From an uncultured Lachnospiraceae bacterium (GTDB lineage Bacteria > Bacillota > Clostridia > Eubacteriales > Anaerofustaceae): a stretch of 64,000 nt of DNA. This document shows, piece by piece, positions 7,131-29,418 of the stretch (position 1 is its first letter; every line of letters starts with the position of its first letter). A program made the position numbers and the translations under genes. The notes beneath the pieces are model-generated. The model had not been told where the DNA came from. It did not search any database and saw nothing but the letters and a program-made list of their open reading frames with translations. The stretch lies in assembly GCA_944381375.1 (NCBI GenBank), contig CALWKX010000022.1, forward strand, positions 62,001 to 126,000, read 5' to 3'.

Positions 7131-7916
7131 TTAAAGTTCCAGATACGAATCAGCATAAAGCGTTTCGTTTTTGATTATATCGCATGACTTCACGGTTTCC
7201 ATAAGTCTTATGTCGCACGGATTAACTATAGCTGATGTTAGTCCGCACTGCATCGCCATGGCAAGCATACAGCTATCCATTATAGGACGAATATGTTTGG
7301 GCATCATGTTGGATACATTGGAAAGCCCTCCTGTAGAATTAAGACCCATGTCAGACAAATCTTTAATAAAATTCAGCACATCGCGCTGTTTATCCTGCAT
7401 GCCTTTTATTACAAGGAACAACGGATCAAACCATATGTCCTCAGGCTCCATACCAAGCCCCAAGCCTCTTTCCAAAAGTTCCTGGCAATATGCATTTCTT
7501 TCATCATTATCAGAAGGAACTCCCGCTTTTGAACATAATGCTATGCATATAGCCTCATTAGCAGCCGCCATATCGAGAAATTCCACTCTGTCTCCTGCGT
7601 CCGCAGAATTTACAATGGGCTTGCCTTTTGAGCGGTTATATACAGAAATACCTGCTTCTATGGCTTTCATATTCGCTGTATCAAGAGCCAAAGGTATGTT
7701 ATCGAAATTATCCTGCAAAAGCTTTACAGCCCATTTCATTAGCTCTACGCCATTTTTTTCAGCAGGACCTATGTTTACATCAATATAAGCCGCTCCCGCG
7801 TCAATTTGTTCCTTCGCCCTTTTAAGTATCGGTTCGGGCTGCATATTGTTCATCGCCTCGCGTATAACCGGCGATATGCAGTGAATTCTTTCACCTATAA
7901 CGATAAATTTAGACAT
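7131..7916 (-). CDS. acsE: Methyl-THF:corrinoid iron-sulfur protein methyltransferase AcsE
   Basis: Moves the methyl group from methyltetrahydrofolate to Co(I) of the corrinoid iron-sulfur protein, linking the methyl and carbonyl branches of the Wood-Ljungdahl pathway. The 261 residues match the family length. A pterin-binding TIM barrel is indicated by IGERIHCISP near the N-terminus, AAYIDVNIGPAEKNG (about 42-56), LALDTANMKAIEAG, IVNSADAGDR, WFDPLFLVI and GGLSNVSNMMP. It follows acsC and acsD in the same operon. Confidence 0.95.
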   Translation of the reverse strand: MSKFIVIGERIHCISPVIREAMNNMQPEPILKRAKEQIDAGAAYIDVNIGPAEKNGVELMKWAVKLLQDNFDNIPLALDTANMKAIEAGISVYNRSKGKPIVNSADAGDRVEFLDMAAANEAICIALCSKAGVPSDNDERNAYCQELLERGLGLGMEPEDIWFDPLFLVIKGMQDKQRDVLNFIKDLSDMGLNSTGGLSNVSNMMPKHIRPIMDSCMLAMAMQCGLTSAIVNPCDIRLMETVKSCDIIKNETLYADSYLEL

Positions 7917-7993: not shown

Positions 7994-9325
7994 CTAAACC
8001 TCTAGTTCCTTAAAATATTTAACTATGCTTACAGCCTCATTAGGCGCTATTATTATTTTCCAGTCCGGCAGTTTTTCTTCTACCTCGCCTTTAAGCACGG
8101 CAACTTTGCCGGGAAGTATTAGCACTCTGTTTTTGATTTTGTTTTCTACATCAAATTCCTTTATGAACTTAGCTATCGAACTTGCGCTGAGCTTGCCTGC
8201 CGCCCACGCCGTCAAAACTGAATATCCTCCCGAATCGGAAATAAGCAGATTCACGGGTACGCCGCTGCGTTCAAGCTCTCCTGAAACAAGGAAATAAGTT
8301 AAGGCAAAATCAACCGTTGTACAGCATACAGAGTTTTCATCAGCGCCGTTTATCGGATAAATGCCGGGTTCCACTTTCATTGGTTTTTGAGGATCAGTAT
8401 ATATATTCTGTCTTAATCCGTAAAGCGGAAGCGCCTGAGCGTAACTCATCGACTGCATTATGATTATGGAACCATATTTAAGCGTAAATACGGAAGCCAA
8501 AGCTGTTTGCATATTTATATCATCTTTTGCAAGAGCTGCCGCGTTTATTATTGACGGATAGCCGAAGGTGCGATCCTTGTCTTTGATAGCTGCGCGTCTT
8601 ACCTGTACGGCGTTTGCAAAAGCTTCTTTTATGCTGCTTCCCGTAACATCCAAAACAAGTTCTTTGTTGCCCAAAGCTTCTATTTTTGCAACAGTATCAT
8701 ATAAAGCGTCAATATCTTTAGCCCTTACTCCCAAAACAACTTTCTTTTCGACAGCGAGAGCATTCATTTGCTCATAATTTTCTTCATTAGCGCCGTTGAG
8801 GATAGGCTTTGCATCTGCGCATACGTCAAGCGCCGCCCTCGCGGCATCAACGCATTCGCAGTCAAGAATAAGAACCCTTCCTTTATTCAAGGTTTTGTTT
8901 ACGAGCTCAACGTATGCGTCTTTATCGCCTTCATATACAAGATTAATAAGCTCCACATACATGCGTTCGCCTATACGCTCGTAATCTACATTTTCAATTT
9001 CCTTAAGTTTTTCATCTACGCATGAAGCGCATACATTTACAGCATACAGATTTTTGGAAACGAAAGTCTTGTCGTGCCTGAAAAGAACGGTTTCACCGCC
9101 AATAGTATGTTCAGTCTCATTAACGCCTATTTTCAAGCTTTTCATCGGAGGCGCTGTCGCTTCGCTCAATTTCGCTTTCGCATCATCTGACAAATACGGG
9201 CATTTCTCAATGGGAACGCTGCCCTGCGCCGCTTTCATAGCAAAAGCCATGCATGTAGGATTACCACATTCCTTGCAGTTTGTTTTCGGAGTAAGCTTAA
9301 ATATATCAAGTCCTTTAAGAGCCAT
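7994..9325 (-). CDS. acsC: Corrinoid iron-sulfur protein large subunit AcsC
   Basis: Large (gamma) subunit of the methyl carrier that passes CH3 from AcsE to acetyl-CoA synthase. The 443 residues begin with a 4Fe-4S domain whose Cys17, Cys20, Cys25 and Cys42 (CKECGNPTC and EKC) have the spacing of the Moorella protein. A TIM barrel and a C-terminal B12-binding region follow, with LLISDSGGYSVLTAWAAG near residue 360. Its ATG at 9325 directly follows the acsD stop at 9326, indicating coupled translation and a fixed subunit ratio. Confidence 0.96.
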   Translation of the reverse strand: MALKGLDIFKLTPKTNCKECGNPTCMAFAMKAAQGSVPIEKCPYLSDDAKAKLSEATAPPMKSLKIGVNETEHTIGGETVLFRHDKTFVSKNLYAVNVCASCVDEKLKEIENVDYERIGERMYVELINLVYEGDKDAYVELVNKTLNKGRVLILDCECVDAARAALDVCADAKPILNGANEENYEQMNALAVEKKVVLGVRAKDIDALYDTVAKIEALGNKELVLDVTGSSIKEAFANAVQVRRAAIKDKDRTFGYPSIINAAALAKDDINMQTALASVFTLKYGSIIIMQSMSYAQALPLYGLRQNIYTDPQKPMKVEPGIYPINGADENSVCCTTVDFALTYFLVSGELERSGVPVNLLISDSGGYSVLTAWAAGKLSASSIAKFIKEFDVENKIKNRVLILPGKVAVLKGEVEEKLPDWKIIIAPNEAVSIVKYFKELEV

Positions 9326-10282
9326 TTAATTTCCCTCCTTATCGCACATTGCGCTGATCAGTTTTGAAATTGTCGCAATGCTTTCAGGGTGTCTGAGTAT
9401 AACCGCATTCGATCCGGCAGCAAGACAAGCGGCGGCAGTTGAAATTTCCATGCTTACGCCTCTTTGTTCCATGCTTCCCCACTGAGGAAATTCCTCTTGA
9501 GAAACTATGGATTCCTTCACACTCCATGCCTCATCGCTGACAGGCGTTATAACAGGCATTTGAAGCATAGTATCATTTTGGCTCAAAGCGGCGGAACGAA
9601 CTCTGTCCATTGTTGATGCAACATATTCAAAACCATAACCCGCAGCAGCGGAACCAAGGTTCATTACGATATTCTCACCTGCTACTCCCATTTGGTTTAT
9701 GAGTACATTGAGCTGCTTGGCCAAATTGATGTCGACCGCAGATTCGGCTCCGACTTTGTGTTTGTAAGCAAGACCTGCACTGGCTGCGATTTCCTTATAG
9801 TTTTCTTCCTGAGCGCTCAAAAACAGAGAGTTTTTGCCTTCAAGAGCCGCAGCTATTTTATCGAATAGCTTGGCGTCTTTTTCTTTATTTTTGCAGCCCT
9901 CTACCACTATGGGCATGTCAACAGCCTCAGCTATTTCCTTAGCCAGAGCCGCACATTCTTCCACTGAAGTATTTTCAGCATCCGGATTTGCGCTCTCAAA
10001 AGACAATACAAGGAAATCAGCTCCGGGCATCAAAGCAGCCTTCTTTGCCATATCCACAAAATTTTCGGCTCCTTTATAATACTCGGCGATACCGGCCACT
10101 GCATTATTGTAGCCTCTGTCGGATATTTGCACGCCTATTTTTGGCTTATTCTCAATCGGCGCGTCAAAAGAATATAAAGGGAATACGTTTTCTCCTCCGA
10201 TTGTTACTGCCTTTTCGCCCGTACCGATCGTTACGGCATTGACTTTGGCAGAAAACGTCTGAGGCGATCTTTTAAAACCCAT
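9326..10282 (-). CDS. acsD: Corrinoid iron-sulfur protein small subunit AcsD
   Basis: Small (delta) subunit that pairs with AcsC to hold the cobamide cofactor. The 318 residues form a TIM-barrel protein without cysteine clusters. Recognisable parts are TIGGENVFPLYSFD near residue 27, EVSDRGYNNA-like IGVQISDRGYNN, ADFLVLSFESANPDAENTS, PIVVEGCKNKEKDA and VITPVSDEAWSVKES. GGAGG lies close upstream of the ATG. It lies between acsB and acsC, as expected for the carbonyl branch. Confidence 0.94.
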   Translation of the reverse strand: MGFKRSPQTFSAKVNAVTIGTGEKAVTIGGENVFPLYSFDAPIENKPKIGVQISDRGYNNAVAGIAEYYKGAENFVDMAKKAALMPGADFLVLSFESANPDAENTSVEECAALAKEIAEAVDMPIVVEGCKNKEKDAKLFDKIAAALEGKNSLFLSAQEENYKEIAASAGLAYKHKVGAESAVDINLAKQLNVLINQMGVAGENIVMNLGSAAAGYGFEYVASTMDRVRSAALSQNDTMLQMPVITPVSDEAWSVKESIVSQEEFPQWGSMEQRGVSMEISTAAACLAAGSNAVILRHPESIATISKLISAMCDKEGN

Positions 10283-10321: not shown

Positions 10322-12451
10322 TTAAAGAAGCGGTTCCATTTCAAGCACAGGATGGCCTACTGTACCGAGATGTTCCAGCAGCGCTTCCGCATCCTCTGTT
10401 ACGGTTTCGTCCCCTATCATAGAGCAGAAATCATCAATTCCGTAGAGGTCTTTGGCCGTAGCGTTGAGCTTATCGTGCACTATTTCCTTGAGAGCCTTTG
10501 GCATCCATACTATTCTTGCAGGGCCTCCCTCAGCTCTCATAAATTTCTTGGAAGCTATAAAATGCTTACCATGCCCCATAAAGCCGGGCGTCTGCACTCC
10601 TCCGCCTGTCATCGAAGCCATCTCCGAGAACGTCATTCCCAAAGGAGTCATCCCCGTATGCTCGCGGTTTACTATTACAACGCCGTTGGAAAACGGTTCT
10701 ATTCCGCATATACATTCAAAGCACCCGCAGCTTGTCATAGGATCTTCCATAATAGAATATAATGTCACTTTCTCAAGCGCGCCGTGCGAATATTTGCTTA
10801 CTGCTTCGTTTACATCCTCGTAAGCGCCCAGACGTTCGTCAATAAGGGAATTCTTGGTAACGATCTGGCTTGGGCCGTTCGGATCAAGTTCAAAAGTCGC
10901 TTTGGCGTCAAGCCATGACACAGCCCCGCAAAGTCCAAGTCTTTCAGGCGTTACTATGCATACATGCGATGGCGAAAAACTCTGGCACAAAATACAGGTA
11001 TAAAACTGATCCACGCTTTCATCGGTAAGCGCCATCAAACGCGCGTCACGGGCGTCATACACTTCATTGGCCTCCGCTCTGAGCTCTTTACATTTTGCCG
11101 GATCCGTATATATTCTTACCTGGCACTTATCAATTACGCTTTCATATTCGCTTTTAACCTTCGCGTAAAGTATCTCTCCTATATGCTTAAGCCTGAAGCC
11201 TGCTTCAAATGCAGAAAGGCTGACGCGGATACGAATAAGATCTCTTTGTCCGGTATGCATAACGCCTTCCGCGCAATTGACAAAATTATGGAAGCGTCTT
11301 TCAAATACAGGCTCAAAATCTGACTGCATGTTTTTTCCGGCAACTTCCACGATAAAGCCTGCGCACATTTTGCTGCCCGGCTCGATTTCATCAATATCGG
11401 GGCCTTCAAGTATGATAGAATGATCTTCTATCTCGTGCGCTTGCTTAGTACGCACCAGTTCAAAGCAATCAAGGCGCGAACCGTCTATATCCACATGAGT
11501 ATCTTTCTTACGTATGATTTCTCCTTCAAAAGCATTGGAAAACGCTACGGGTATATCTATATTCGTAACTTTTATCTTTATATCTCTGGCCTCAAGAGAG
11601 GTCTCGATGAAATCAGACGTATCCGGCTGAATTATAAGGCTTTTCGGCACTCTCCACATATTGTTCTCATCATTTGTGATAACAGGAAAGCCCATAGCTA
11701 TTGCGCCGCCGCCGCACGCGACAGTTATATCGTCAACAGGAGCGAAAGCGTTTACAAATGCGAATATTCTTTTGAATGTATATTCATTTACAGCGTCCCA
11801 ATCTCCCGGCTGTACTGCGCCGAATATCATGGCTGCTCGCACGACAAGCGAGATTATATGTCCCACTGACCATATATCCTTGCCTGTAGGAACAACACGT
11901 ACGGCAAATCCCATTGATATGTTTTTCCTTTGCGCCTGATCAATAATATCGCCGATGAGGAATACGAAAATACCTCTGGATTGATATCCTTTAATAAGTT
12001 CGAACGCTTCATCGTCGCTTTTCGCCGCGCCTATAATTACGACAAAACCTGGTATTTCCTGAGTAACAAGCGGCACTCCGAGTTCTCTGACTTCCGCATC
12101 AGAAAAATGTCCGTGATATATGCTGTCTTCATATGGATTGGGGGATTTTGCATACTTTACCGCTTCAATGATTTCCGCGGCTATGGCAGTTGCAATCCCG
12201 TTTTTGAAAATATCCTCTGTTTTCTGCTCTCTTGTACAAAGAGCTTTTACATCATCAAAAGCTTCTTTAAGATCGCTGAGCTTAGCGACCTTACGCCCCG
12301 TATAAGCATAGATACAAGCGAGGAAATAACCTGTATCAGGCATTACCATGGGCGCGTCGATTCCCAATTCGTCTATAGCTGCGCTAAGATCCTGCTCTGC
12401 TTTTGCGAGCATATCATCCGCGCCTGCAAATACTCTGTCAAAAAGTCCCAT
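10322..12451 (-). CDS. acsB: Acetyl-CoA synthase (CO-methylating), ACS alpha subunit
   Basis: Joins CO, the methyl group from the corrinoid protein and CoA into acetyl-CoA at the nickel-iron A-cluster. The 709 residues start about 20 later than the Moorella enzyme. A-cluster cysteines are present at Cys486, Cys489, Cys498 and Cys508 (4Fe-4S), with Cys575-Gly-Cys577 binding the distal nickel; all are shifted by exactly 20 from Moorella numbering. It sits between cooC and acsD. It is the bacterial type, with the N-terminal domain that docks with CODH. Confidence 0.97.
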   Translation of the reverse strand: MGLFDRVFAGADDMLAKAEQDLSAAIDELGIDAPMVMPDTGYFLACIYAYTGRKVAKLSDLKEAFDDVKALCTREQKTEDIFKNGIATAIAAEIIEAVKYAKSPNPYEDSIYHGHFSDAEVRELGVPLVTQEIPGFVVIIGAAKSDDEAFELIKGYQSRGIFVFLIGDIIDQAQRKNISMGFAVRVVPTGKDIWSVGHIISLVVRAAMIFGAVQPGDWDAVNEYTFKRIFAFVNAFAPVDDITVACGGGAIAMGFPVITNDENNMWRVPKSLIIQPDTSDFIETSLEARDIKIKVTNIDIPVAFSNAFEGEIIRKKDTHVDIDGSRLDCFELVRTKQAHEIEDHSIILEGPDIDEIEPGSKMCAGFIVEVAGKNMQSDFEPVFERRFHNFVNCAEGVMHTGQRDLIRIRVSLSAFEAGFRLKHIGEILYAKVKSEYESVIDKCQVRIYTDPAKCKELRAEANEVYDARDARLMALTDESVDQFYTCILCQSFSPSHVCIVTPERLGLCGAVSWLDAKATFELDPNGPSQIVTKNSLIDERLGAYEDVNEAVSKYSHGALEKVTLYSIMEDPMTSCGCFECICGIEPFSNGVVIVNREHTGMTPLGMTFSEMASMTGGGVQTPGFMGHGKHFIASKKFMRAEGGPARIVWMPKALKEIVHDKLNATAKDLYGIDDFCSMIGDETVTEDAEALLEHLGTVGHPVLEMEPLL

Positions 12452-12474: not shown

Positions 12475-13242
12475 TTATGCATCAATAGCTTGTTTGATTA
12501 TTCTGACTTCTTCAACTGTCGAAGCGCTTGATTCAAACGGAGAAACTCCGTTTCTGTCGGCATCGCTGATATTTTCGCTGTAAGTCATAAAACCGAGAAG
12601 TTCATCAGGCGGTATTACTGATTGTATAAATTCTCTGTCCGCAAAACTTCTGATTTTATTCGCCACCACGCTGACTTTCCTTACTCCGATATCTTCAGCA
12701 AGGCGTTTTACGCTCTCATACGTCTGAACGCTCCTTTGACCCGGCTCTACAACTGTTATGAAGCGATCCACGAAATCGGCAGTACCGCGTCCCAAATGTT
12801 CTAATCCAGCTTCCATATCCAATATGACTACTTCGTCGCGGTTTAAAACAAGATTGGAAATAACTCGTTTTAAAATTACATTTTCAGGGCATACGCATCC
12901 GCTTCCGCCTGTTTTTACGGTTCCCATTATGAGCAATTTAACTCCGTTTTTTTCAAGCGCGAACCTGTCAGGTATATCGTCCACTTTAGGATTTATTTTG
13001 AAAAATTTACCGAAGTTTTCCTTGCTTGCGCCCGTTCGCTCCGCAATCAGATCGCTCATTTCCGAAATCGGCGTAAGCAAGGCAAGTTCTTTGGGCGTAA
13101 AACCGAGAGCAAATCCAAGATTTGCGTCAGGATCAACATCCGCAGCTAAAACCTTTTTACCTTCCTGGGCATAAAGCCTTGCAAGTATTGCGCTTAATGT
13201 AGTCTTACCGACTCCTCCCTTGCCGCTTATAGCAATTTTCAT
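12475..13242 (-). CDS. cooC: CooC/AcsF-type nickel-insertion ATPase (first copy)
   Basis: MinD-family dimeric ATPase that loads nickel into CODH or ACS. The 255 residues carry a deviant Walker A GKGGVGKTT near residues 7-15, a switch sequence VDPDANLG, the nickel-binding Cys-X-Cys in GSGCVCPEN, and VVILDMEAGLEHLGRG as Walker B. Its place between cooS and acsB fits either client; the copy next to acsB may be the AcsF-type ACS maturase, but this is inference. It lies 112 bp after cooS. Confidence 0.92.
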   Translation of the reverse strand: MKIAISGKGGVGKTTLSAILARLYAQEGKKVLAADVDPDANLGFALGFTPKELALLTPISEMSDLIAERTGASKENFGKFFKINPKVDDIPDRFALEKNGVKLLIMGTVKTGGSGCVCPENVILKRVISNLVLNRDEVVILDMEAGLEHLGRGTADFVDRFITVVEPGQRSVQTYESVKRLAEDIGVRKVSVVANKIRSFADREFIQSVIPPDELLGFMTYSENISDADRNGVSPFESSASTVEEVRIIKQAIDA

Positions 13243-13354: not shown

Positions 13355-15250
13355 TTAAATGCCTAACGCAGCGCGTTTAGCTTCTATACCGTCTATCATC
13401 GCCTGAACCAATTCGTGAGGGTCTTTATTTATAATATAACCAGCTCCCGTAATTTCACGCGTACCTTGTGTAATAAGCTGCATCATTTTTGCGCTGCCCT
13501 TTACCTGAGGCTCGATTCCCAAATACGTATCAATACCTGTGGAAACCACATAATTGGCGATTGATACGGCCTTTTCGCTCATCCATTCCGGAGCGCAGCC
13601 GACAACGGGCACTTTTGTTATATCAACGCCCCAGTCTTTTGCTATTCCTGTGGCCAAAAGCATCATACGGCTGATATCAACGCAAGAACCCATATGAAGC
13701 ACAGGTGGAATATCAGCAAGCTCACAAACTCTTTTAAGTCCTGCGCCGCACAAGTTTTTGGCTTCTTTGCTCAAAAGACCTGCTTTGGCTGCAGCCTGCG
13801 CCGAACATCCGCTGGCAACGATAATTATATCGTTTTTGATAAGCTTTTTCATTATTTCAATATGAGAATAATCCGGACGCACTTTCGGGTTATTGCAGCC
13901 TACGATAGCGACTGCTCCGCGCAAAACTCCGGAAGTTACACAATCAATAAGCGGTTTATAGGTATTGCGCTCGTCAAGATGTGAATTCGTAACCGTATCA
14001 AGCTGCTTCAAAATAGATTCACATGAATAACCTACAACAGCCTTTTCTTTTGTTTTGGGGATAAATATTTTGTTTTTGTCACGGTTGGCAAAATTCTCAA
14101 CGGCCATTTTGACAATTTGTCTTCCCTGTTCAAGCGCATTTTCCTTTTCCATTTTTATATGTATGGCTCCAGGAATACGCGCTATTTCGGAAGTAGTAAT
14201 AAACTTGGTATGGAAACACTCGCTCAATGGACCCAATGCAGGGAATATGCACTGTACGTCCACAGCGATAAGTTCTACACAGCCTGTAAGTATAGCATTT
14301 TCCTGCTGCAGGAAGTTGCCGGCCATTTTTACTCCGTGGCGCATAGCGACTTCATTTGCAGTACAACACAGTCCGGCGATATTAATTCCTTTTGCTCCAT
14401 AGCTTCTTGCAAGATCGAGTAAATCTTTATGTTCGGAGGCTTGCACTATCATTTCCGACATAGCGGGGTCATGGCCGTGAACAATTATGTTTACCATATC
14501 TTCTTCTATAACTCCCAAACCGCCTTCCGTCTCGCGCACGCTTGGAGTACCGAAAAGTATATCTGTAAACTCTGTGCCCATCATTGAGCCGCCCCAGCCG
14601 TCCGCCATGCCTGTTCTGAGACTTTGGCGCACCAATGCTTCAGCATCTGCGGTGTTACCCATATGAGTCATATGCATTGCAGTCGTTATTTCGCGGTCGA
14701 CAGCCCGGGGAGATATGCCTTGTTCTTCCCATGTTTTCTGTCTTTCTTCTGTAGCACGTTTAAGAAATTTCTGCGTGCCGAAAGGCTTGCCGTATTCGTT
14801 AAGCCCGCACAAAGCGACGTCATGCGCTATATCATAAATATCTCTTCCTTCAGTTTCGATATCCCATTCTTTTGCAAGATTAATAAGCTTTACGGTATCC
14901 GTAACTTTATAATAACCATCGGCCTTTGCGGCATAAAGAGTATGGCATATTTCGCGTCCATGGTCTGAATGTGCAGAACATCCTCCCGCTACCATACGCA
15001 GATAGTTTCTGCCTGCAATAGCGTCTGCGTCAGCGCCGCAAATGCCTCTGGGCGCTTTAGGCGTTATTCTGCAGGGTCCCATGGAACAGATCCGGCAACA
15101 TACGCCTTCTTCACCAAACTTACAATGAGGAGTTTGGTTTTTGTTTCTGTCCTCCCACGTTTGGGCGCCGGAGGCCTTGCTAAGCTCATAGAGTTTGGCG
15201 CTGTCAGCTTCCATTTGCTCAACCGTAGTAAAACAATTTTCGTCCTTCAA
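13355..15250 (-). CDS. cooS: Carbon monoxide dehydrogenase catalytic subunit
   Basis: Nickel-iron enzyme that reduces CO2 to CO for acetyl-CoA synthase, or oxidises CO. The 631 residues are full length. The D-cluster Cys43 and Cys51 and B-cluster Cys52, Cys55, Cys60 and Cys71 lie in the N-terminus (CCRICSMGPCRI). C-cluster ligands are seen in VHGHDPAMSEM, GLCCTANE, VGCNNP, ASGCSAQAA and MGSCVDISR. It lies between two cooC genes and upstream of acsB, so it most likely forms the CODH/ACS complex. Confidence 0.97.
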   Translation of the reverse strand: MKDENCFTTVEQMEADSAKLYELSKASGAQTWEDRNKNQTPHCKFGEEGVCCRICSMGPCRITPKAPRGICGADADAIAGRNYLRMVAGGCSAHSDHGREICHTLYAAKADGYYKVTDTVKLINLAKEWDIETEGRDIYDIAHDVALCGLNEYGKPFGTQKFLKRATEERQKTWEEQGISPRAVDREITTAMHMTHMGNTADAEALVRQSLRTGMADGWGGSMMGTEFTDILFGTPSVRETEGGLGVIEEDMVNIIVHGHDPAMSEMIVQASEHKDLLDLARSYGAKGINIAGLCCTANEVAMRHGVKMAGNFLQQENAILTGCVELIAVDVQCIFPALGPLSECFHTKFITTSEIARIPGAIHIKMEKENALEQGRQIVKMAVENFANRDKNKIFIPKTKEKAVVGYSCESILKQLDTVTNSHLDERNTYKPLIDCVTSGVLRGAVAIVGCNNPKVRPDYSHIEIMKKLIKNDIIIVASGCSAQAAAKAGLLSKEAKNLCGAGLKRVCELADIPPVLHMGSCVDISRMMLLATGIAKDWGVDITKVPVVGCAPEWMSEKAVSIANYVVSTGIDTYLGIEPQVKGSAKMMQLITQGTREITGAGYIINKDPHELVQAMIDGIEAKRAALGI

Positions 15251-15294: not shown

Positions 15295-16047
15295 TTATTC
15301 GAACAAACTGCCGATAAATTTTTCAAACGCTCCTCTTGCCGCAGTATCAGCTCCGAGTTTTGACGTCGGTTTGCCGGCGCAATCATATGCGTATACCATT
15401 TCATCGCCAGGCACGACTCCAAGAAGATCAAGCCCCTGAAGTTTTATTTCTTCTATTACTCCGTCGTCAAGCTTACCATCGGGAGCCCTGTTTACAATGA
15501 GTTTTGTTTTTTTAGGCTTAATTCCCATTTGATCGATCAACGCGGCAATGCGGCCTACAGCCTGAACGCCTCTTTTTGAGCAATCAGATACAAGCAGAAA
15601 ATAATCAACGGACGGCAGTATGCCACGGCTTATATGCTCCATACCCGCTTCATTGTCAACAACTACATATTTGTATGCCCCTGAAAGTTTGTTAAGTTGA
15701 TTTTGAAGCAAGCTGTTTACAAAACAGTAGCAGCCTTTACCTTCTGTACGCCCCATTATGAGCATATCGAAGTCGTCTTCTTCAATAAGCGCATCTGCAA
15801 ATTTGCAATCCATATAGTCCTGTTTGCTTATACCTGCCGGAATATTATCGGATAAAACCTGTTCTCTGATCTGACCAAGGGTAATATCCGCTTCAACGCC
15901 GAGCACTTCGTTGAGGTTGCTGTTCGCATCAGCGTCAACCGCGAGCACAGGCGTTTTGCCTGTTTTACACAGCCAATCAATCAAGAAACCGCACAGCGTT
16001 GTTTTGCCCGTTCCTCCTTTGCCGGCGACAGCTATAGTTTCAGACAT
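15295..16047 (-). CDS. cooC: CooC-type nickel-insertion ATPase (second copy)
   Basis: First gene after the strong promoter, 44 bp ahead of cooS. About 250 residues with deviant Walker A GKGGTGKTT, VDADANSNLNEVLG, the nickel-binding Cys-X-Cys in GKGCYCFVNS and VVVDNEAGMEHISRG. It differs widely from the other cooC in this operon, so the pair is not a recent duplication and may serve different sites (CODH C-cluster and ACS A-cluster). The ATG at 16047 is preferred over a GTG 18 bp upstream because AAAGGAG lies 6 bases before it. Confidence 0.93.
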   Translation of the reverse strand: MSETIAVAGKGGTGKTTLCGFLIDWLCKTGKTPVLAVDADANSNLNEVLGVEADITLGQIREQVLSDNIPAGISKQDYMDCKFADALIEEDDFDMLIMGRTEGKGCYCFVNSLLQNQLNKLSGAYKYVVVDNEAGMEHISRGILPSVDYFLLVSDCSKRGVQAVGRIAALIDQMGIKPKKTKLIVNRAPDGKLDDGVIEEIKLQGLDLLGVVPGDEMVYAYDCAGKPTSKLGADTAARGAFEKFIGSLFE

Positions 16048-16081: not shown

Positions 16082-16105
16082 TGCGCGCAGCATGAAAAGC
16101 GCGCA
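16082..16105 (-). promoter_or_regulatory. Leader hairpin of cooC-cooS-acs mRNA
   Basis: TGCGCGC and GCGCGCA form a 7-bp GC-only stem with a 10-base loop in the 5' leader, about 35 bases before the cooC start. It could protect the mRNA or affect initiation. No cobalamin riboswitch fits in this short leader. Confidence 0.55.
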
Positions 16106-16121: not shown

Positions 16122-16151
16122 ATTATAAAATCCCTCGGAGGGGGTTGTCAA
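16122..16151 (-). promoter_or_regulatory. Consensus sigma-A promoter of the CODH/ACS operon with palindromic spacer
   Basis: On the minus strand TTGACA (16151-16146), an 18-base spacer and TATAAT (16127-16122). The spacer contains the palindrome CCCTCGGAGGG (16132-16142), GC-rich in an AT-rich setting and placed where a bound repressor would block RNA polymerase. The predicted start is near 16115, leaving a leader of roughly 68 bases. Confidence 0.8.
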
Positions 16152-16249: not shown

Positions 16250-16278
16250 TAAAAAATGGCTTAACAAAGCCAAAAAAT
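16250..16278 (-). terminator. Terminator between cooT and the cooC-cooS operon
   Basis: On the minus strand TGGCTT, a 4-base loop and AAGCCA are followed by TTTTTTAATT. It lies about 160 bases after the cooT stop and 100 bases upstream of the next promoter, so cooT and cooC-cooS may be separate transcripts. The stem is only 6 bp. Confidence 0.6.
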
Positions 16279-16435: not shown

Positions 16436-16621
16436 TTACTTTTCGATGGTAATTTCATTTTTTACAAGGTCTATATAACTTATATTTCCTGCAATTTCCT
16501 TTACAGCTCCCATTATGTCGCTTATAAATATTTTACCGTTTTCGATCTTTACTGAGCTTATATATTCTCCGATTTTTTCGTTTTTTCCGTTTACGACTTT
16601 ATATACTGTTGAAAGGCACAT
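16436..16621 (-). CDS. cooT: CooT-family nickel-binding protein
   Basis: A 61-residue protein starting MCLSTVYKVVNGKNEKIGEY. Cys2 directly after the start Met is the nickel ligand of the CooT family, small dimeric chaperones linked to CODH maturation. The rest has the family pattern of short beta strands, including VKIENGKIFISDIMG. It lies 4 bp after the His-rich gene and upstream of the cooC-cooS operon, which supports a role in nickel supply to CODH/ACS. Confidence 0.85.
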   Translation of the reverse strand: MCLSTVYKVVNGKNEKIGEYISSVKIENGKIFISDIMGAVKEIAGNISYIDLVKNEITIEK

Positions 16622-16625
16622 TATC

Positions 16626-16865
16626 TTACTCCTCAGATAATATTTTAAGCGCGTGAGCCAATTTCAGATTACCGCTGTCAAAATCATCCGCGGCGCTTTC
16701 TACAAGCTGAGATGCACGGATATCGTCTTTTGCCGCTAATTTTTCTGCGAGATCTCTGAGATCTTCAGCATGAGATTTATTATGTTCGAGCATATAACTT
16801 AAAAGCGCTTCGCTGTTTATTGGCTGTTGTTCATTTTCGTGATGATGGTGATGTCCTTCGTGCAT
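16626..16865 (-). CDS. Small His-rich protein, probable metal handling
   Basis: A 79-residue soluble protein starting MHEGHHHHHENEQQ, with six histidines in its first nine residues. The remainder is predicted alpha-helical and acidic, with AEDLRDLAEKLAAKDD and ASQLVESAADDFDSGN. I do not recognise a named family with certainty. The His cluster suggests binding of nickel or another metal, and co-transcription with cooT (4-bp gap) ahead of CODH/ACS supports nickel storage or delivery. GGAGATATT lies just upstream of the ATG. Confidence 0.7.
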   Translation of the reverse strand: MHEGHHHHHENEQQPINSEALLSYMLEHNKSHAEDLRDLAEKLAAKDDIRASQLVESAADDFDSGNLKLAHALKILSEE

Positions 16866-17045: not shown

Positions 17046-17357
17046 ATGATAGAAAGAATTGTAATACTCAAAAACATACCGTTAAGCTATGGAGCTAGCG
17101 CTTCAATGGTAGCGTGTTTATTGAAACGCAAAATGAATAACTTTGAGAGTGATTGTATTATTTCAGCGGGAGATTTTGTAACGGACATACGCAATGAAAA
17201 CTCCATACTAAGTCTATTTGACAGGCTTGAAGACGGGAGTGAAATCAATATTTGCGTAGTAGGAAGCGATGAAGAAAAAGCAATAAAAGCGCTGATTGAA
17301 TTTTTGGAGGAATACTGCGGAGAAGATGGCGTACCGACGTATTTCAATCAGTTTTAA
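17046..17357 (+). CDS. HPr-like protein lacking the active-site histidine
   Basis: A 103-residue protein with the length, secondary-structure pattern and C-terminal half of phosphocarrier HPr, such as EINICVVGSDEEKAIKALIEFLEE. The usual G-(I/L)-H-A-R-P site is replaced by LSYGASASM, so His15 is absent. The serine corresponding to regulatory Ser46 appears kept (Ser53 in NENSIL). It should not carry phosphate in the sugar phosphotransferase chain; a regulatory role like Bacillus Crh, which also lacks His15, is possible. It has no PTS neighbours and is convergent with the antiporter operon. GAGGG precedes the ATG. Confidence 0.7.
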   Translation: MIERIVILKNIPLSYGASASMVACLLKRKMNNFESDCIISAGDFVTDIRNENSILSLFDRLEDGSEINICVVGSDEEKAIKALIEFLEEYCGEDGVPTYFNQF

Positions 17358-17721: not shown

Positions 17722-19674
17722 TCAGCTTAAAATCATACACAAAAGAACGACTAAAAGTCCCGCCGAAAACATCAATAAACTGGATGTAACAGTATCAAGC
17801 ATGGCGTTTTGCCCCACAGCATGACTGTTGGTTCCTTCTTTTTGGCTTGATGTAAAATACACTTCATTTTTCAAAAACCGGTATAAAAGTATTCCGAGAG
17901 CGGCAATACTGTCAACAAGCCTATCCAAAAAACGGCATATAACGGACAATATCATTGGTATAATCTTCGTTGCCAAAGGTCTGTAAAATTCAAGCTCAAT
18001 ATCGGTCCACTCCGGCAGTGCGTTGATATAATAACTGCGGCTTTCAGAATATTTTTTTACAAGCAGCGTTCTGACAATGCCGAAATATACCACAAGTCCA
18101 ATAGCTACTGATATTATTACTCCTTTAAGACATATAAATGATAAATAATGTATCTCATGGCTCAGCACATCAGCATGCATAAACGAAAGACACGCTTCGC
18201 CTATTTTTTCGTACAGTTTTTTTGGCATTACTCCGAATACAACAAGCATAAGCGCAGGCGCGGCAATGCTGACAGCGCTTAACGGCCTTATGTATTTTCT
18301 ATTTGAGAAACTTTGAATACTGTCTGAAGAAGGCTTTTGTATAAATACAGCGACAAATACTTTCAACATATACGCCGCTGTTAAACCTCCCGTAAATAAA
18401 AATACATATTCGGAAAGACGATAATACCACTCAAGCCCGCTGCCCGCAGCAATAACGATTTGTTCCACAATACTCTCATGCAGCATTGTCTTGCTGATAT
18501 AGCCGCTCGTACCGGGGATTCCCATCAATGAAAGCCCTCCCAAAGCAAACACCAAAAACAATAAGGGCTTATTCCTGCCATATCCTTTTATTTCATTTAA
18601 ATTCAATTCATGCGTATTCAAATATATAATTCCTGCCGCCATAAAAAGCGCAAGTTTAACAAGCGTATGGTTTACCATATGAAGACTCGTGCCATAAGCC
18701 GCCAAAGCATTGTGATGCCCAAGTATGCACTGCATGGCTATACCTGTAGTAATAAAACCGCTTTGCGATACCGAAGAGCAAGCCAAAGTTCGCTTTATAT
18801 CTACAGAAAAAAGCGCAAGTAAAGCGCCAAGAAGCATAGTAGCCAAACCAAACGCAAGAAGTATATTCCCCCACAGCGCATCATATCGCAATACTTCACA
18901 AGATAGTATTAGCATACCGAAAAAACCTGTTTTTATCATAATGCCGGAAAGCAGAGCTGAAGCCGGAGCCGGAGCGACAGGATGAGCCTTAGGCAGCCAT
19001 ACATGCATTGGGAATGTTCCAGCTTTCGTCGCAAACCCGAAAGCCATCAGAGCGCAGGCCGCATAAATTTTGTTTTTATTCTCATATGCACTCGCCGCCG
19101 CATATATTTCGTTTATTTCCACAGTACCCAGCATACTGTAAAGCATCAAAATGCCAAACAGCAGAACAAGGCCGCTCAATACGCTGATATATAAATACAC
19201 ATTGGCCGCTTCCTTTGTCTTGAGCTTTTCTTCATGCGCGACAAGCGCGAAAGAGGACAGCGACATGATTTCAAAGAAGATAAAAGTCGTTACAAGATCT
19301 GCGGATAAGAACACTCCGCTCGTCGCAGAAAGCGTAATCAACATAAAAAAGTAATATCTGTTGCGATTTCTGTAATGAGCAAAATATTCCATACCGAAAA
19401 CACTCGCAAGGAACCAGCCTAAGCACGTCAGCACAATATACACATAGCGAAATCCGCTCAAAGTAAGATTAATACCAAAGCCCATTACCATTTCTATGCA
19501 CAAAAAAGCAGTATCAACTTCTTTGTAAAGCATCACAGCAAATACAAGCTGTATAAACGTTATGCCTATAACAAATATATTCCTTAATTTCTTATTTTTC
19601 AGACCTGTCAGATACGATATGAAGGCTCCTGCCAAAGGCCATACTATCAGAGCCGCCATGATGAATTTGCCCAT
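17722..19674 (-). CDS. Large antiporter-like subunit (NuoL/MrpD family), third copy in the Mrp/Mbh cluster
   Basis: Multi-pass membrane protein of 650 residues in the proton-conducting family of complex I and Mrp antiporters. The key glutamate is in FIFFEIMSLSSFAL and the key lysine in FATKAGTFPMHVWLPKAHPVAPAPASA (cut here for length). The longer C-terminal part after about residue 500 adds transmembrane segments. It is the last gene of the operon. No hydrogenase or quinone-module gene follows it. The exact transported ion is not visible from the sequence. Confidence 0.85.
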   Translation of the reverse strand: MGKFIMAALIVWPLAGAFISYLTGLKNKKLRNIFVIGITFIQLVFAVMLYKEVDTAFLCIEMVMGFGINLTLSGFRYVYIVLTCLGWFLASVFGMEYFAHYRNRNRYYFFMLITLSATSGVFLSADLVTTFIFFEIMSLSSFALVAHEEKLKTKEAANVYLYISVLSGLVLLFGILMLYSMLGTVEINEIYAAASAYENKNKIYAACALMAFGFATKAGTFPMHVWLPKAHPVAPAPASALLSGIMIKTGFFGMLILSCEVLRYDALWGNILLAFGLATMLLGALLALFSVDIKRTLACSSVSQSGFITTGIAMQCILGHHNALAAYGTSLHMVNHTLVKLALFMAAGIIYLNTHELNLNEIKGYGRNKPLLFLVFALGGLSLMGIPGTSGYISKTMLHESIVEQIVIAAGSGLEWYYRLSEYVFLFTGGLTAAYMLKVFVAVFIQKPSSDSIQSFSNRKYIRPLSAVSIAAPALMLVVFGVMPKKLYEKIGEACLSFMHADVLSHEIHYLSFICLKGVIISVAIGLVVYFGIVRTLLVKKYSESRSYYINALPEWTDIELEFYRPLATKIIPMILSVICRFLDRLVDSIAALGILLYRFLKNEVYFTSSQKEGTNSHAVGQNAMLDTVTSSLLMFSAGLLVVLLCMILS

Positions 19675-19698
19675 TCACATTTTCCTTTAAATCTAAAT

Positions 19699-21168
19699 CT
19701 AAAATATCCTTAACGCCAAAGTCTGCGCTAACGAAATAAGCATATGCGGGTACACAGCGATAGCTATCCCGGCTAAAGTTAAAACTACGGGAGAAAATTT
19801 CATAATAAATCCAACGTCTATTTTCTTTAAGCTGCGGTACTCGTAATCGTCTCCAGGGAAAAAACCGTTGACCGAAACCGGAAGAAGGTACCCTGCCGTA
19901 AACAAAGCGCTGAGCATTAAAAGCGCCGAAGCAATATAACCTATAATTTCCGAAGAAAAGCTCAAAGCCCCCATTACGAGATAGCCTTTGCTCACAAAAC
20001 CGCCCATCGGAGGAATTCCTATAAGCGACAAAGACGCCGCGGCAAAACAAAGCATAGTCGTTTTCATCTCCTTGCCAATGCCGCGCATATCATTCACATC
20101 CGTTTTTCCTGTTTGCGTTATTATGGAACCGGCGCACATAAATAGCACGCTTTTAGCAATCCCATGAAATATTACTTGCAGCAGTGCCGCGGCAAAAGCC
20201 GTTTCGTTCAAAAGGAAGATTCCCAACAAAACATAGGAAACCTGACTTATAGATGAATAAGCCAGCCGCTTTTTCAGCTTGAACGTGCGAAAAGCAATTA
20301 CAGAACCTATCAGAATCGAAGCCATCGCAAGTATAATAAGCGTTGTTTGAACCCATTCGCCGCGTACAAAATCAACTCCTACCACATAAAAAGTAGTGCG
20401 GATTATAGCAAAAACGCCCATTTTTGTAATAACGCCGGATAAGACTGCCGAGGCGGGAGAAGGCGCCTGAGGGTGCGCTGCCGTAAGCCATGAATGAAGA
20501 GGGAAAAGTCCGGCCTTGCATCCAAACCCGATAATCGTTATGAAATACACTGCAAGCAGCATGTTTTTATTTTCGAAAGCGGCTGCACTTAATACGCCTG
20601 AAACGCTAAAAGTTGTACCGGCGCTGTAATTATAAAAATAAAATATTCCGATAAGCGCTAATGCCGCCCCTATAAAAGAATATATAAGATATTTTTTACC
20701 TGCGGCTATTGCTTCGCCAGTCTGCTCGTGCATGACAAGAGGAAAAGACAAAAGAGTCATGGCTTCGTAAAATATATACAACGTGAAAAGATTGGCCGAA
20801 AACACAATGCCGTTTATTACGCCTAAGGTCATCAGATAAAACACATAAAAACGCTTTTGCTTTGCATCATGACTCATGTATCCAAAAGAATATATGCCGG
20901 CCAAGAGCCATATACTGCATGAGAATACTGAAAAGAATATACTCAGCTCATCAACAGAAAATGCTATTGTCAAAGAGCTGGTAACGCTCAAAACAGTAAA
21001 GCTGGATTTCCCGCCTATTGCGCAGAATACTGACGCAGCGGCTGTTGCAGCCAATACTATCAGAATATATATATTTCTTTTTTTATCGCTTTTGAATTTT
21101 GCAAATACTGCGCCGAATGAGCCTGATACAGGCACAACAACTGCACATAAAGCTGCTATATAACTCAT
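19699..21168 (-). CDS. Large antiporter-like subunit (NuoM/MrpD family), second copy
   Basis: A 489-residue protein with about 14 transmembrane helices. The conserved glutamate lies in TLYIFYEAMTLLSFPLVM and the conserved lysine in FGCKAGLFPLHSWLTAAHP, with SPASAVLSGVITKMG following. It sits 18 bp after the first large subunit and 24 bp before the third. The three copies differ in sequence and so probably hold distinct places in one membrane arm rather than being redundant. Confidence 0.87.
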   Translation of the reverse strand: MSYIAALCAVVVPVSGSFGAVFAKFKSDKKRNIYILIVLAATAAASVFCAIGGKSSFTVLSVTSSLTIAFSVDELSIFFSVFSCSIWLLAGIYSFGYMSHDAKQKRFYVFYLMTLGVINGIVFSANLFTLYIFYEAMTLLSFPLVMHEQTGEAIAAGKKYLIYSFIGAALALIGIFYFYNYSAGTTFSVSGVLSAAAFENKNMLLAVYFITIIGFGCKAGLFPLHSWLTAAHPQAPSPASAVLSGVITKMGVFAIIRTTFYVVGVDFVRGEWVQTTLIILAMASILIGSVIAFRTFKLKKRLAYSSISQVSYVLLGIFLLNETAFAAALLQVIFHGIAKSVLFMCAGSIITQTGKTDVNDMRGIGKEMKTTMLCFAAASLSLIGIPPMGGFVSKGYLVMGALSFSSEIIGYIASALLMLSALFTAGYLLPVSVNGFFPGDDYEYRSLKKIDVGFIMKFSPVVLTLAGIAIAVYPHMLISLAQTLALRIF

Positions 21169-21186
21169 AAATACTCCTTTGACAGC

Positions 21187-22680
21187 CTATCCAATAAGAT
21201 CGGCAAGCCCTGTGTTAATAAGGGCGGAAAGAGGCGCGCTGAATAAACCCATAAGCACTATCACTAATGTAAGCACTATTTGAGACCATATCTCCTTGAA
21301 CGGCGCCTGTGAAGTGAATTTTTCAGCGGTCCGTGCCTCTTTGCTGAAACAGCCTCTTATTATCGGAGGGAAATAATACGATGCGTTCAGCAAAGTAGAA
21401 AGAGTTAGCGCTATTATCAAAACCCTGTTTTCACCGTCTATCGCCGCCTGAGCAAGATTCCACTTGCTTATAAAACCCATAAGCAAAGGTATGCCTATCA
21501 TCGACAATGCGCATATTACGAACATTGCCATAGTGACAGGCATTTTAGGCCCTATATCGCGCATTTTTCTCAAATCTCTCGTTTTTGAATATGAAATCAT
21601 ATTCCCCGCTATAAGAAACATATCAGCTTTTGTAACCGCATGAGTGATTATATGGTAAACTGCCGCTGCAAGTCCCAACGGGCTTGCAAGCCCTATGCCT
21701 GCATAAATATAGCCTATTTGAGATATAGACGAACAGGCTATCATTTTTTTGATGTCAGTCTGGCGCATTGCTTTTACGGAACCATAAATCATAGCGATTA
21801 CGCCAAAGACAAAAAGTACATTTGATATATTTGTTTCTCTTATGAATTCTATGCCGAAAACTCTGTAGAAAACTTTTATGAGCAACACTATGTAACCTTT
21901 AGTGATAAGGCTCGAAAGAATAGCGCTCGAAGTGACGGTAGCGGCGCTTGAAGCCTTTGGAAGCCATGCATGAAACGGGAAAAGCGCGCTTTTAACAGTA
22001 AGCCCCACGCACATCATACCCGCAGCTACCAAAACAGGAAGCCTATAGGAGCCCGATTCCCAAAGCAACTGTATGCTTTCAAACAAATAAAGCATATTAA
22101 GATGCCCTGTAACTGTATAAAGTATTGCTATCGAAAATAGTATCAGTCCTGAGGCAAGCATACTGACGATAAAATACCTGACGGTAGCCAGATACGTATC
22201 GTCCTTTTCTTTGGCCATTACTATAAAAAATGCCCCGACAGTATTTATTTCTATAAAGACATAGCAAGTAAAAATATCATTTGAGTAAATAATTGCCAGC
22301 ATAGACGCCAAAAGCAAATCAAGCATCATATAGTAGTACTGCGATGTTTTGTTTTCTAGATCATATTTTAAGTCTTTAAGCCCTCCGAATACGGAAAAAA
22401 GCATAACAAACGCAAACACGCTGGCCATGACAGACTCGAACACACCGCATTTCAGCTCATTTCCCCACGGGGCGCTGAAATACCCAGCCTGATAAATAAA
22501 GACTTCATTGCTCGGCACAATACATACGCTCAGTATCACGCTTGCAAGCAGCACTGTTGCTATAAGAGAGGTTGTAATAACAGCGGCGCATTTTTTATTT
22601 TTTATCAAAGGAGTGATAATGGCGGCGGCAAGCGAAATAAGAATACTAAACAAAGGAATATTTTTGTACCATTCAAGCAT
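21187..22680 (-). CDS. Large antiporter-like subunit (MrpD/MbhH family), first copy
   Basis: A 497-residue polytopic membrane protein. It has the channel glutamate in FTCYVFIEINTVGAFF and the lysine in LTVKSALFPFHAWLPKA, with SSAILSSLITKGY after it. It overlaps the preceding mrpC-like gene by 8 bp. The position right after the C subunit is that of MrpD in Mrp clusters and MbhH in Mbh clusters, so of the three this copy is the likely positional orthologue. Confidence 0.88.
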   Translation of the reverse strand: MLEWYKNIPLFSILISLAAAIITPLIKNKKCAAVITTSLIATVLLASVILSVCIVPSNEVFIYQAGYFSAPWGNELKCGVFESVMASVFAFVMLFSVFGGLKDLKYDLENKTSQYYYMMLDLLLASMLAIIYSNDIFTCYVFIEINTVGAFFIVMAKEKDDTYLATVRYFIVSMLASGLILFSIAILYTVTGHLNMLYLFESIQLLWESGSYRLPVLVAAGMMCVGLTVKSALFPFHAWLPKASSAATVTSSAILSSLITKGYIVLLIKVFYRVFGIEFIRETNISNVLFVFGVIAMIYGSVKAMRQTDIKKMIACSSISQIGYIYAGIGLASPLGLAAAVYHIITHAVTKADMFLIAGNMISYSKTRDLRKMRDIGPKMPVTMAMFVICALSMIGIPLLMGFISKWNLAQAAIDGENRVLIIALTLSTLLNASYYFPPIIRGCFSKEARTAEKFTSQAPFKEIWSQIVLTLVIVLMGLFSAPLSALINTGLADLIG

Positions 22681-23062
22681 TGCCGCTTTCTCCTTGTTTT
22701 TTTTCGTTTCTTACAATCAAAGTAAGCTCGTCGATGTTTACTGTACCGTATTTTTTATAAAGCCTCTGTGTCAACGCCAGGGCAAACGCAGTAACGCTTA
22801 CTGATACGACTATACCCGTAAGAACGAGTCCTGATGGAACAGGGTTTACATATACGTTTGACACATTGCCCGGCTCTATTATCGGCTCGATACCGCCGTT
22901 TACATATCCCTGCACTGCCAAAAACAAAAAAACAGCAGTATCCATAATATTGAGTCCGACTATTTTTTTTATCATATTGCGGCTTAACAAAAGCATCAGA
23001 AAACCTACCGCAAATAAGATCACAGAAAAATAAGAGTGATAATGCATTAAAAAATCAATCAA
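22673..23062 (-). CDS. mrpC: MrpC/NuoK-like antiporter subunit
   Basis: A 129-residue membrane protein with three hydrophobic segments. ILFAVGFLMLLLSRNMIKKIVGLNIMDTAVFLFL (shortened: RNMIKKIVGLNIMDTAV) is typical of NuoK/MrpC, followed by PSGLVLTGIVVSVSVTAFALAL near the C-terminus. It overlaps the B-like subunit by 8 bp and the first large subunit by 8 bp, so all are translationally coupled. Confidence 0.88.
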   Translation of the reverse strand: MIDFLMHYHSYFSVILFAVGFLMLLLSRNMIKKIVGLNIMDTAVFLFLAVQGYVNGGIEPIIEPGNVSNVYVNPVPSGLVLTGIVVSVSVTAFALALTQRLYKKYGTVNIDELTLIVRNEKKQGESGNA

Positions 23063-23501
23063 TACGACCTCCCCAATGGCTGAACAAAGAATACAGCAAA
23101 TAGATCATATCCGATACGACAAGCGCAATACAAATATTTACAGGCAATATCAGACCTGCGCTGAGTATGTTGCCGGGAGAGCCTAAAGGTATAACTGATT
23201 CATATCCATTGGCTCCAAGGAAAAACACTGCGCCTTTTAAAGCAAGATAAATAATCAGTGATACTGACATTGTTATTACGCAGCCTCTGAAAGTGAAAAA
23301 CTTATCGGATATTTTGCTTCCGAAAGCTATATTAAACAATATAAAGCCGACTCCTATGATAACGCCGCCTGCAAAGCCTCCTCCTGGAGATAAATGCCCG
23401 TTGAGAACAATGTATATACCGTACAAAAATATAATTGGTATGATAAAAGCGGCCACTGAACGAAGGATTTTGAATTCTCCCTGTTTGTTGAGGTTTTTCA
23501 T
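23055..23501 (-). CDS. mrpB: MrpB-like antiporter subunit
   Basis: A 148-residue membrane protein with four hydrophobic segments. The motif YIVLNGHLSPGGGFAGGVI near residue 27 is the hallmark of MnhB/MrpB. It overlaps the D/E fusion gene upstream by 4 bp and mrpC downstream by 8 bp. Order and overlap place it in the Mrp/Mbh membrane module. Confidence 0.9.
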   Translation of the reverse strand: MKNLNKQGEFKILRSVAAFIIPIIFLYGIYIVLNGHLSPGGGFAGGVIIGVGFILFNIAFGSKISDKFFTFRGCVITMSVSLIIYLALKGAVFFLGANGYESVIPLGSPGNILSAGLILPVNICIALVVSDMIYLLYSLFSHWGGRID

Positions 23502-24235
23502 TCGAACTTCTCCCGGCTGTAGCGTTTTTTGTCCCCTTCGGTAGTCTCTGCTTTTAGAAGATAAACTACCGCAACTGTAGCTGTAAACAGCATAGTGGTT
23601 TCAGCGAACGTATCTAAAGAACGGTAATCCAATATCATGCCTGTAACAGCGTTGAGAGCTCCTGTTTGCTCGACGGATTTTTCTATGTACATTTTGGAGA
23701 CTTCATTATTGGCAGGATTCTGAGGATCTCCGAACGCAGGAAGCTGAGAACACATGACAAGCATAACCGCGACAACCCCTAAAAAAGCCAGGGCTGCGGC
23801 TATTCTGCCCAATCGGTTGACAAGAGTCATATTCACGTTTATTTTGCCGCTTCTGCCTATTATCACTTCTTTTTCGCCTTTTTTTACGGGATAATTTTTG
23901 ACTGTATCTGCGCTTAATTCGCCTTTGAACCAAAGCGCAACGGCTTTAAGCTTATTCTTGGTGTTTTCTTCAATATGACTGTTCTTCGTTTTGTGCAGAG
24001 GAATAGCCTTTATTCTGTTCATAGTCAAAAAGAACAGTATCATGGATATTCCCACGTCTACCGCCGCTTTGGTAATTGCCAAATCAGGAGCGCGCAATGT
24101 AAAGAGGACGCAAGCCATTATTATGCTATATGGCATATAAATTAAAAGTGAAGCAAGCACGTTTTTTGAACAGGCGCTGGCAATGCTGAATATAACAAGC
24201 AAAACAAGAAGAGTTATTTCGAAGAACGTTGACAA
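23498..24235 (-). CDS. MbhD-MbhE fusion (C-terminal MrpA equivalent, DUF4040)
   Basis: A 245-residue protein made of two parts. Residues 1-75 resemble MbhD/DUF4040, with FTLRAPDLAITKAAVDVGIS. After a charged linker of about 75 residues, residues 150-235 resemble MbhE, with FGDPQNPANNEVS, TGALNAVTGMILDYRSLDT and MLFTATVAVVYLL. In Bacillus-type Mrp these parts form the C-terminus of MrpA; in archaeal Mbh they are separate. Here they are fused to each other without the NuoL-like part. It overlaps mrpG by 22 bp. Confidence 0.82.
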   Translation of the reverse strand: MSTFFEITLLVLLVIFSIASACSKNVLASLLIYMPYSIIMACVLFTLRAPDLAITKAAVDVGISMILFFLTMNRIKAIPLHKTKNSHIEENTKNKLKAVALWFKGELSADTVKNYPVKKGEKEVIIGRSGKINVNMTLVNRLGRIAAALAFLGVVAVMLVMCSQLPAFGDPQNPANNEVSKMYIEKSVEQTGALNAVTGMILDYRSLDTFAETTMLFTATVAVVYLLKAETTEGDKKRYSREKFE

Positions 24236-24546
24236 TCAATCACCTCATATTCCTTAGGATTATCGCCTGAGAGTATTTCGGCTTTTGTGATCATTACAGA
24301 AATCACAGGATTTGTGATCCACATAAAAAACAATATAACTATAAGCTTAAGCGTACTGAAAGAAAATCCGGATATGATAATAAGGCCTATTATAATCAAA
24401 AGCATCGCCAGCGTATCGCAAAAAGCGGTAACATGCAGACGGTTGATGACGTAATTCATTTTATATATGCCTTTTACACCTGTTGCAAAAACAAACATAC
24501 CGCCAAGAATAAATACGGTTGCAATAACAGCGCGAAGCATGATCAA
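24214..24546 (-). CDS. mrpG: MrpG-like antiporter subunit
   Basis: A 110-residue membrane protein with three hydrophobic segments. YKMNYVINRLHVTAFCDTLAML and ITNPVISVMITKAE match MrpG/MnhG, where the first region normally reads as MpD-x-YxRxH. It overlaps mrpF by 4 bp (ATGA) and extends 22 bp into the next gene. Confidence 0.86.
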   Translation of the reverse strand: MIMLRAVIATVFILGGMFVFATGVKGIYKMNYVINRLHVTAFCDTLAMLLIIIGLIIISGFSFSTLKLIVILFFMWITNPVISVMITKAEILSGDNPKEYEVIDCQRSSK

Positions 24547-29389: not shown

Positions 29390-29418
29390 TTGACAAATTT
29401 TTACTATAATGATATATT
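29390..29418 (+). promoter_or_regulatory. Sigma-A promoter of the DUF1492-like gene
   Basis: TTGACA (29390-29395), 17 bases, TATATT (29413-29418). Predicted start near 29425, just ahead of the LexA box. Confidence 0.75.

Follow-up and report, generated by a model that had tools for sequence, protein, structure and literature searches.

How the CODH/ACS of acetogens is switched on and off is poorly known. In the published accounts, as far as their available text goes, control of acetogen genes is ascribed to housekeeping promoters, to a SigH motif and to a single TetR activator: the carbonyl branch of E. limosum is read from housekeeping promoters (PMC5651825), the Wood-Ljungdahl genes of Sporomusa carry SigH motifs (PMC12456013), and the regulator and motif published for the Wood-Ljungdahl genes of C. 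autoethanogenum are the TetR activator CAETHG_0459 and Pcauto, a series of spaced (A/T)G repeats unlike -35 and -10 hexamers, for which the excerpted text describes no G/C palindrome (PMC6873888). We found no report of a CsoR-family regulator of CODH/ACS in the open literature searched. The window analysed here, i.e. the whole 64,000-nucleotide stretch of DNA, contains an acs operon with a palindrome between the hexamers of its promoter. We asked whether this palindrome is an operator and, if so, which protein would bind it.

The genes behind the promoter are ordered cooC-acsA-cooC2-acsB-D-C-E-V. The features of the region are the following:

16626-16865, minus strand: 79-amino-acid His-rich protein with a motif common to the acs operon-head proteins of relatives
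16436-16621, minus strand: cooT (PF10133)
16257-16272, minus strand: terminator-like hairpin with a T run behind it, between cooT and the cooC promoter (terminator scan)
16146-16151, minus strand: -35 hexamer TTGACA (consensus match)
16130-16146, no strand assigned: 17-bp operator-like site, AACCC-CCTCCGA-GGGAT as read on the minus strand, occupying most of the promoter spacer
16132-16142, no strand assigned: core palindrome CCCTC-C-GAGGG, the site given in the initial annotation
16122-16127, minus strand: -10 hexamer TATAAT (consensus match)
15295-16047, minus strand: cooC, the gene next to the promoter, for a P-loop nickel-insertion ATPase; named by its position, with profile HMMs matching only the MinD/ParA superfamily
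13355-15250, minus strand: acsA, CODH catalytic subunit (TIGR01702)
12475-13242, minus strand: second CooC-like ATPase (profile match), called cooC2 here
10322-12451, minus strand: acsB, acetyl-CoA synthase (NF040764)
9326-10282, minus strand: acsD (NF040759)
7994-9325, minus strand: acsC (NF003195)
7131-7916, minus strand: acsE methyltransferase (NF040758)
5312-6982, minus strand: acsV-like corrinoid activator (NF040756, 780 bits, below the cut-off of 800)

Upstream of the promoter and on the same strand lie the His-rich gene, cooT and the terminator-like hairpin; a new transcription unit therefore probably begins at the promoter of cooC. Further upstream, a 103-amino-acid HPr-like protein (17046-17357, plus strand; PF00381, 26.6 bits) is encoded between the acs region and the genes of an Mrp/MBH-like membrane complex (17722-25338, minus strand), the domains of which are Proton_antipo_M, Oxidored_q2, MnhB, MbhD/E, MrpF, MnhG and MNHE.

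The initial annotation had described a near-perfect promoter with a palindrome between its hexamers, and this is what the window contains. TTGACA-N18-TATAAT at 16151-16122 (minus strand) matches the consensus at 12/12 positions with a spacer of 18 nt, and the ATG of cooC (16047) is found 74 nt downstream on the same strand, behind a good ribosome site, AAAAGGAGTTAACATG. The arrangement is that of a housekeeping sigma promoter, i.e. TTGACA, 16-18 nt, TATAAT and a gene on the same strand. TATAAT starts 69-80 nt ahead of cooC in 5/5 family members compared (window included), and this common placement supports the promoter. Perfect promoters are real features, with counts far above chance: the window has two (0.07 expected) and the genome 36, compared with five for the reversed pattern. 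We conclude that 16151-16122 is very probably a real promoter. The description of it as the strongest promoter in the window has to be given up, since a second sequence at 39698-39670 (minus strand; 17-nt spacer), inside the open reading frame 39427-41223 (minus strand), equally matches at 12/12 positions.

The sequence between the two hexamers is CCCTCCGAGGG. It contains CCCTCGGAGGG (plus strand) at 16132-16142, and the only occurrence of CCCTCNGAGGG in the 1.54-Mb assembly is at these positions. Taken on its own, the palindrome is only mildly unusual. Dyads with 5-bp arms are present in 5.4% of random 18-mers from the window and in 7/36 perfect-promoter spacers of the genome (3.0 expected), and when the 140 nt ahead of cooC were shuffled with dinucleotides preserved, the palindrome had a p value of 0.23. 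Both the frequency of about 5% and this p value favour the explanation that the promoter is constitutive and the palindrome an accident of its base composition, with nothing bound to it; so does the description of the E. limosum acs promoters as housekeeping promoters in the available text of PMC5651825, and so does the distribution of the palindrome within the family.

To follow this distribution, 110 upstream regions of cooC homologues were collected, including the window (L003) and one repeat (L046, of L004); there were 0 genomes of the same genus among the 60 relatives listed. The palindrome, proposed to be kept in close relatives, is absent, as is the motif described below, from the 150 nt before cooC in four family members (L004-L007), where the -10 hexamer is kept. 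The operon order in these four is cooC-acsD-acsC, not cooC-acsA. The search of orthologous acs operons suggested by the initial annotation thus had a divided outcome, negative in L004-L007 and positive in operons with the gene order of the window. When all cooC upstream regions were pooled, CCC-N5-GGG was present in 6/87 non-redundant regions and other spacings were about equally frequent, a weak signal because many of the loci have cooC inside an operon or in another gene order. acsA adjoins cooC in 39/110 loci (window included; for some loci the downstream sequence is short), and 36/39 of them have an upstream gene for a His-rich protein with the motif of the window protein. The loci read in detail have the order His-rich gene, cooT, sometimes metF (named by eye), cooC. 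The relatives' proteins that share the motif of the 79-amino-acid protein head the acs operon, often behind the operator described below.

A motif matrix was built from 17 sites of other loci, with the window left out, and corresponds to WWCCC-N7-GGGWW (a pattern noticed post hoc, for which the p values ignore common descent). At a threshold of at least 14 bits and with leave-one-out scoring, the motif is present in 17/47 non-redundant acs head or cooC promoter regions, the cooC promoter of the window included, and falls below the threshold in the other 30; the threshold is reached by 3/739 control upstream regions from these loci and by 2/113 AT-rich ones. Sixteen of the 17 sites are located in the core promoter or at most 9 nt from it: eight in the spacer, four starting directly after the -10 hexamer (L037, L041, L056 and L066) and four ending at the -35 hexamer or within 9 nt before it. 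The remaining site (L108) is 15 nt before a weak promoter. Head-promoter examples are TTGCCAAAATCCCCCTATGGGGGTATAAT (L100), TTGCTAAATATCCCCCCATGGGGTATAAT (L086) and TTGCCTAAATCCCCCGTATGGGGTATAAT (L048), and L082 has TTGACATATCCCATATAGGGGGATATAAT ahead of cooC. The His-rich head unit of the window has only a weak promoter-like sequence, and its promoter region contains no WWCCC-N7-GGGWW site; L040 is similar to the window in this respect, having a His-rich gene upstream and the dyad not at the head but at the cooC promoter. Scored with the matrix from other genomes, the window site AACCC-CCTCCGA-GGGAT fits the acs motif: its 19.8 bits are the highest score in the 64 kb, no other independent site exceeds 12.1 bits, and its score was matched by 0/2000 mononucleotide shuffles of the 200 nt.

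Two other measures of recurrence were obtained. CCC-N3..7-GGG is present in 25/50 head or cooC promoter regions (2.5 expected, at most 6 in 200 mononucleotide shuffles) and GGG-N3..7-CCC in 0/50, where the 50 regions include three near-duplicates and L003, L040, L063 and L079 are each counted at two promoters; a few of the 25 regions, e.g. L033 and L034, have the match near their far end. A CsoR-type matrix was made from 13 canonical operators of seven CsoR-family genes, chosen by eye and including no acs site. Upstream of cooC in the acsA class it detected 12/90 forward promoter-like elements (nine loci, window included, with L087 and L097 being weak) and 0/56 reverse ones, compared with 4/114 forward and 0/97 reverse elements in the other operon classes. 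On the acs promoters of L072, L063 and L079 it found nothing (p 0.79, 0.43 and 0.41, respectively).

Because it recurs at the acs promoters of other gut and rumen bacteria, the palindrome is more than a product of chance. This recurrence, far above that in the controls, together with the top rank of the window site under a matrix built without it, makes incidental base composition a very unlikely explanation. The earlier proposal that the palindrome serves as an operator is supported by the promoters of other lineages, and we consider with some confidence that it is probably the operator of the acs operon. Another possibility is that the palindrome serves cooT transcripts as a weak terminator or as a hairpin, since on the minus strand ATTTTATAATT comes after a GC-rich dyad. 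However, the stem is only about 4 bp long with a 3-nt loop and was not called by the terminator scan, a better terminator-like site is located at 16272-16257, and the motif keeps to the core promoter in relatives (before, within or after it), so that a terminator appears extremely improbable. An RNA element was rejected as well: the window gave no Rfam match at gathering scores, the palindrome precedes the position at which the transcript is expected to start, and the fold of the leader is ordinary (z -0.43 versus shuffles). The leader has a hairpin of its own, TGCGCGC-N10-GCGCGCA at 16082-16105 (minus strand), between the expected start and the ribosome site.

The CsoR family was suggested as a source of the DNA-binding protein by one of the dyad-bearing perfect-promoter spacers of the genome, TTGACAAATACCCCATAAGGGTATATAAT, behind which lie a CsoR-family gene and then a gene for a P-type ATPase. 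The window site has the two inverted short G/C tracts of CsoR/RcnR type 2 operators, in the form of CCC...GGG in AACCCCCTCCGAGGGAT, and canonical type 2 operators likewise have two G/C tracts in a pseudopalindrome, several of those seen here being located between -35 and -10 (PMC3902906, available in part). The same excerpts report a flanking dyad, TAC-X9-GTA, as required for CsoR binding (PMC3902906); the window has AAC...GAT instead, and for this reason we do not class its site with the type 2 operators of CsoR. The RcnR operator TACT-G6-N-AGTA (type 1), which belongs to the nickel/cobalt sensing branch, likewise combines a G/C tract with A/T flanks, but its G tract is unbroken, whereas the window has two inverted tracts (PMC7055735, available in part). 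We think that the window site works like an operator of the CsoR/RcnR family. The canonical CsoR operators, 13 of which were compared, have the half-sites ATACC/GGTAT (ATACC-N7-GGTAT), as opposed to WWCCC-N7-GGGWW at the acs promoters, where C occupies the third place of the half-site in 31/34 cases. This difference fits a paralogue other than canonical CsoR.

Among the window proteins scanned (558 to 34985), there were no DNA-binding regulators, apart from a weak match to sigma-70 region 4 at 29409-29951. Three CsoR-family genes are present in the genome of the window. The promoter of one of them (L140, G000:C24:382-410), located before CsoR-family and P-type ATPase genes, is perfect and has ATACCCCATAAGGGTAT in its spacer, an arrangement that resembles the canonical operator of a copper CsoR. 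Another gene, G000:C6:6667-7014, outside the window, encodes a CsoR/RcnR-family protein with a His-rich N-terminus and a Trns_repr_metal domain (PF02583, E 3.8e-26). Among solved structures it is closest to InrS, a nickel repressor of Synechocystis (best PDB match, E 2.4e-22), which it resembles in the His-Cys-His-Cys fingerprint and in the extra N-terminal histidines. Its residues 30, 62, 87 and 91, aligned to His21, Cys53, His78 and Cys82 of InrS, are invariant in 40/40 sequences of an alignment that includes the protein itself and is restricted to matches above 100 bits (fingerprint as given in the available part of PMC4235346).

The gene of the His-rich protein carries the motif at its own promoter, AAGCCCCGCAGGGGGAT, immediately before the -35 hexamer (17.4 bits). 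In 41 genomes with the gene, we searched the 300 nt preceding the match to the protein for sites of at least 14 bits. Such sites were found in 6/16 genomes with the acs motif and in 0/25 others (Fisher p=0.0018), which leaves 10/16 motif-bearing genomes with no site upstream of the regulator gene. Removal of G063, G067 and G006, whose acs promoters had not been examined, gave 0/22 others and p 0.003, and removal of L092 and L093 gave 4/14 versus 0/25 and p 0.012. In L092 and L093, the regulator gene is divergent from the acs operon and one common site is placed between the two. The presence of the protein (E <= 1e-30, hand tally) does not track the motif, as it was found in 16/17 genomes with the motif versus 19/26 genomes that lack it.

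A genuine acs operator might alternatively be bound by a different CsoR-family paralogue or by an unrelated factor that recognises G/C tracts. This is conceivable with three CsoR-family genes in the genome, and the perfect promoter of the one adjacent to the P-type ATPase gene contains ATACCCCATAAGGGTAT, to which the acs matrix gives 15.5 bits; furthermore, L067 has a site of 22 bits, yet its genome contains no match to the CsoR query. On the other side stand the divergence of the WWCCC half-sites from ATACC/GGTAT, the motif at the promoter of the His-rich protein itself and the two divergent pairs, the last two of which favour that protein. We therefore regard another binder as possible but rather unlikely.

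The initial annotation had envisaged a repressor that would shut off a nickel-dependent pathway. The part of this proposal concerning the repressor now has a candidate, the InrS-like protein, with the motif at its own gene. Because the motif resembles CsoR/RcnR-family operators, and because the gene of the InrS-like protein carries it and is divergent to acs in two relatives, we infer a nickel-tied repressor. nrsD is a nickel efflux gene. According to the available part of the InrS study, InrS represses nrsD and nickel weakens its binding to DNA (PMC4235346); in the present case the operon of a nickel enzyme is the proposed target. The His-rich InrS-like protein, as a nickel-responsive repressor, is the best-supported partner of the operator, although its binding, repression and response to nickel are predicted from sequence.

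In the mechanism that we favour, the housekeeping-sigma promoter would drive cooC-acsA-cooC2-acsBDCEV, with the operator WWCCC-N7-GGGWW between -35 and -10, where a bound repressor would block RNA polymerase. The repressor would most likely be the His-rich InrS-like protein G000:C6:6667-7014. When nickel is lacking, it would occupy the acs site and its own promoter, and binding of nickel would release it, so that CODH/ACS would be made only when nickel is available. To this mechanism as a whole, an operator together with a His-rich InrS-like repressor released by nickel, we assign a probability of about 0.6, with binding, repression and the nickel signal all being putative. More tentative is the broader proposal that several lineages of Clostridia from gut and rumen control CODH/ACS by an InrS-type nickel repressor and a conserved operator, and we put it at somewhat less than an even chance. 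With an operator common to several lineages and a named candidate sensor, the question can be tested with one protein, one probe and nickel. If the mechanism is correct, metal supply would be linked to carbon fixation in gut acetogens: nickel would license carbon fixation, the nickel enzyme of the pathway being transcribed only in the presence of nickel, and a nickel-tunable promoter could become possible.

Other elements were observed at the cooC and acs loci of relatives. The leader motif TCAACA-N3-TGTTCA with a divergent TetR-family gene was considered as an acs regulator and dropped: acsA, acsB, acsC, acsD and acsE were found in 0/23 loci with this motif (842 to 6762 nt downstream searched), which are thus separate cooC units. 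In these units (L053, L060, L049, L036, L069, L054 and others), AAAA[AG]TCAACA-N3-TGTTCA is located just after the -10 hexamer, and the divergent TetR-family gene encodes a product of ~200 amino acids with conserved cysteines. Among 85 non-redundant loci with at least 900 nt upstream, the gene accompanies the motif within 200 nt in 12/12 cases, and the motif is present in 0/68 loci that lack the gene; four of the five remaining loci with the TetR gene have the motif further upstream. A stricter TCAACA-type pattern occurs once each in 7/14 genomes searched and is absent from the genome of the window.

At the acs heads L037, L041, L048, L051, L056, L059, L100 and others, there is a leader motif like TGTCAAAAATTTAACA, which resembles a Rex operator. 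It was counted in 13/45 heads (two of them near-duplicates) versus 0.1 expected, and was not seen by eye in the leaders of the window. In L063 and L079, which lack the G/C motif and whose genomes have no match to the His-rich CsoR query, the cooC leader contains a long palindrome around ACTTGTATATACAAGT, and these two loci may use another regulator.
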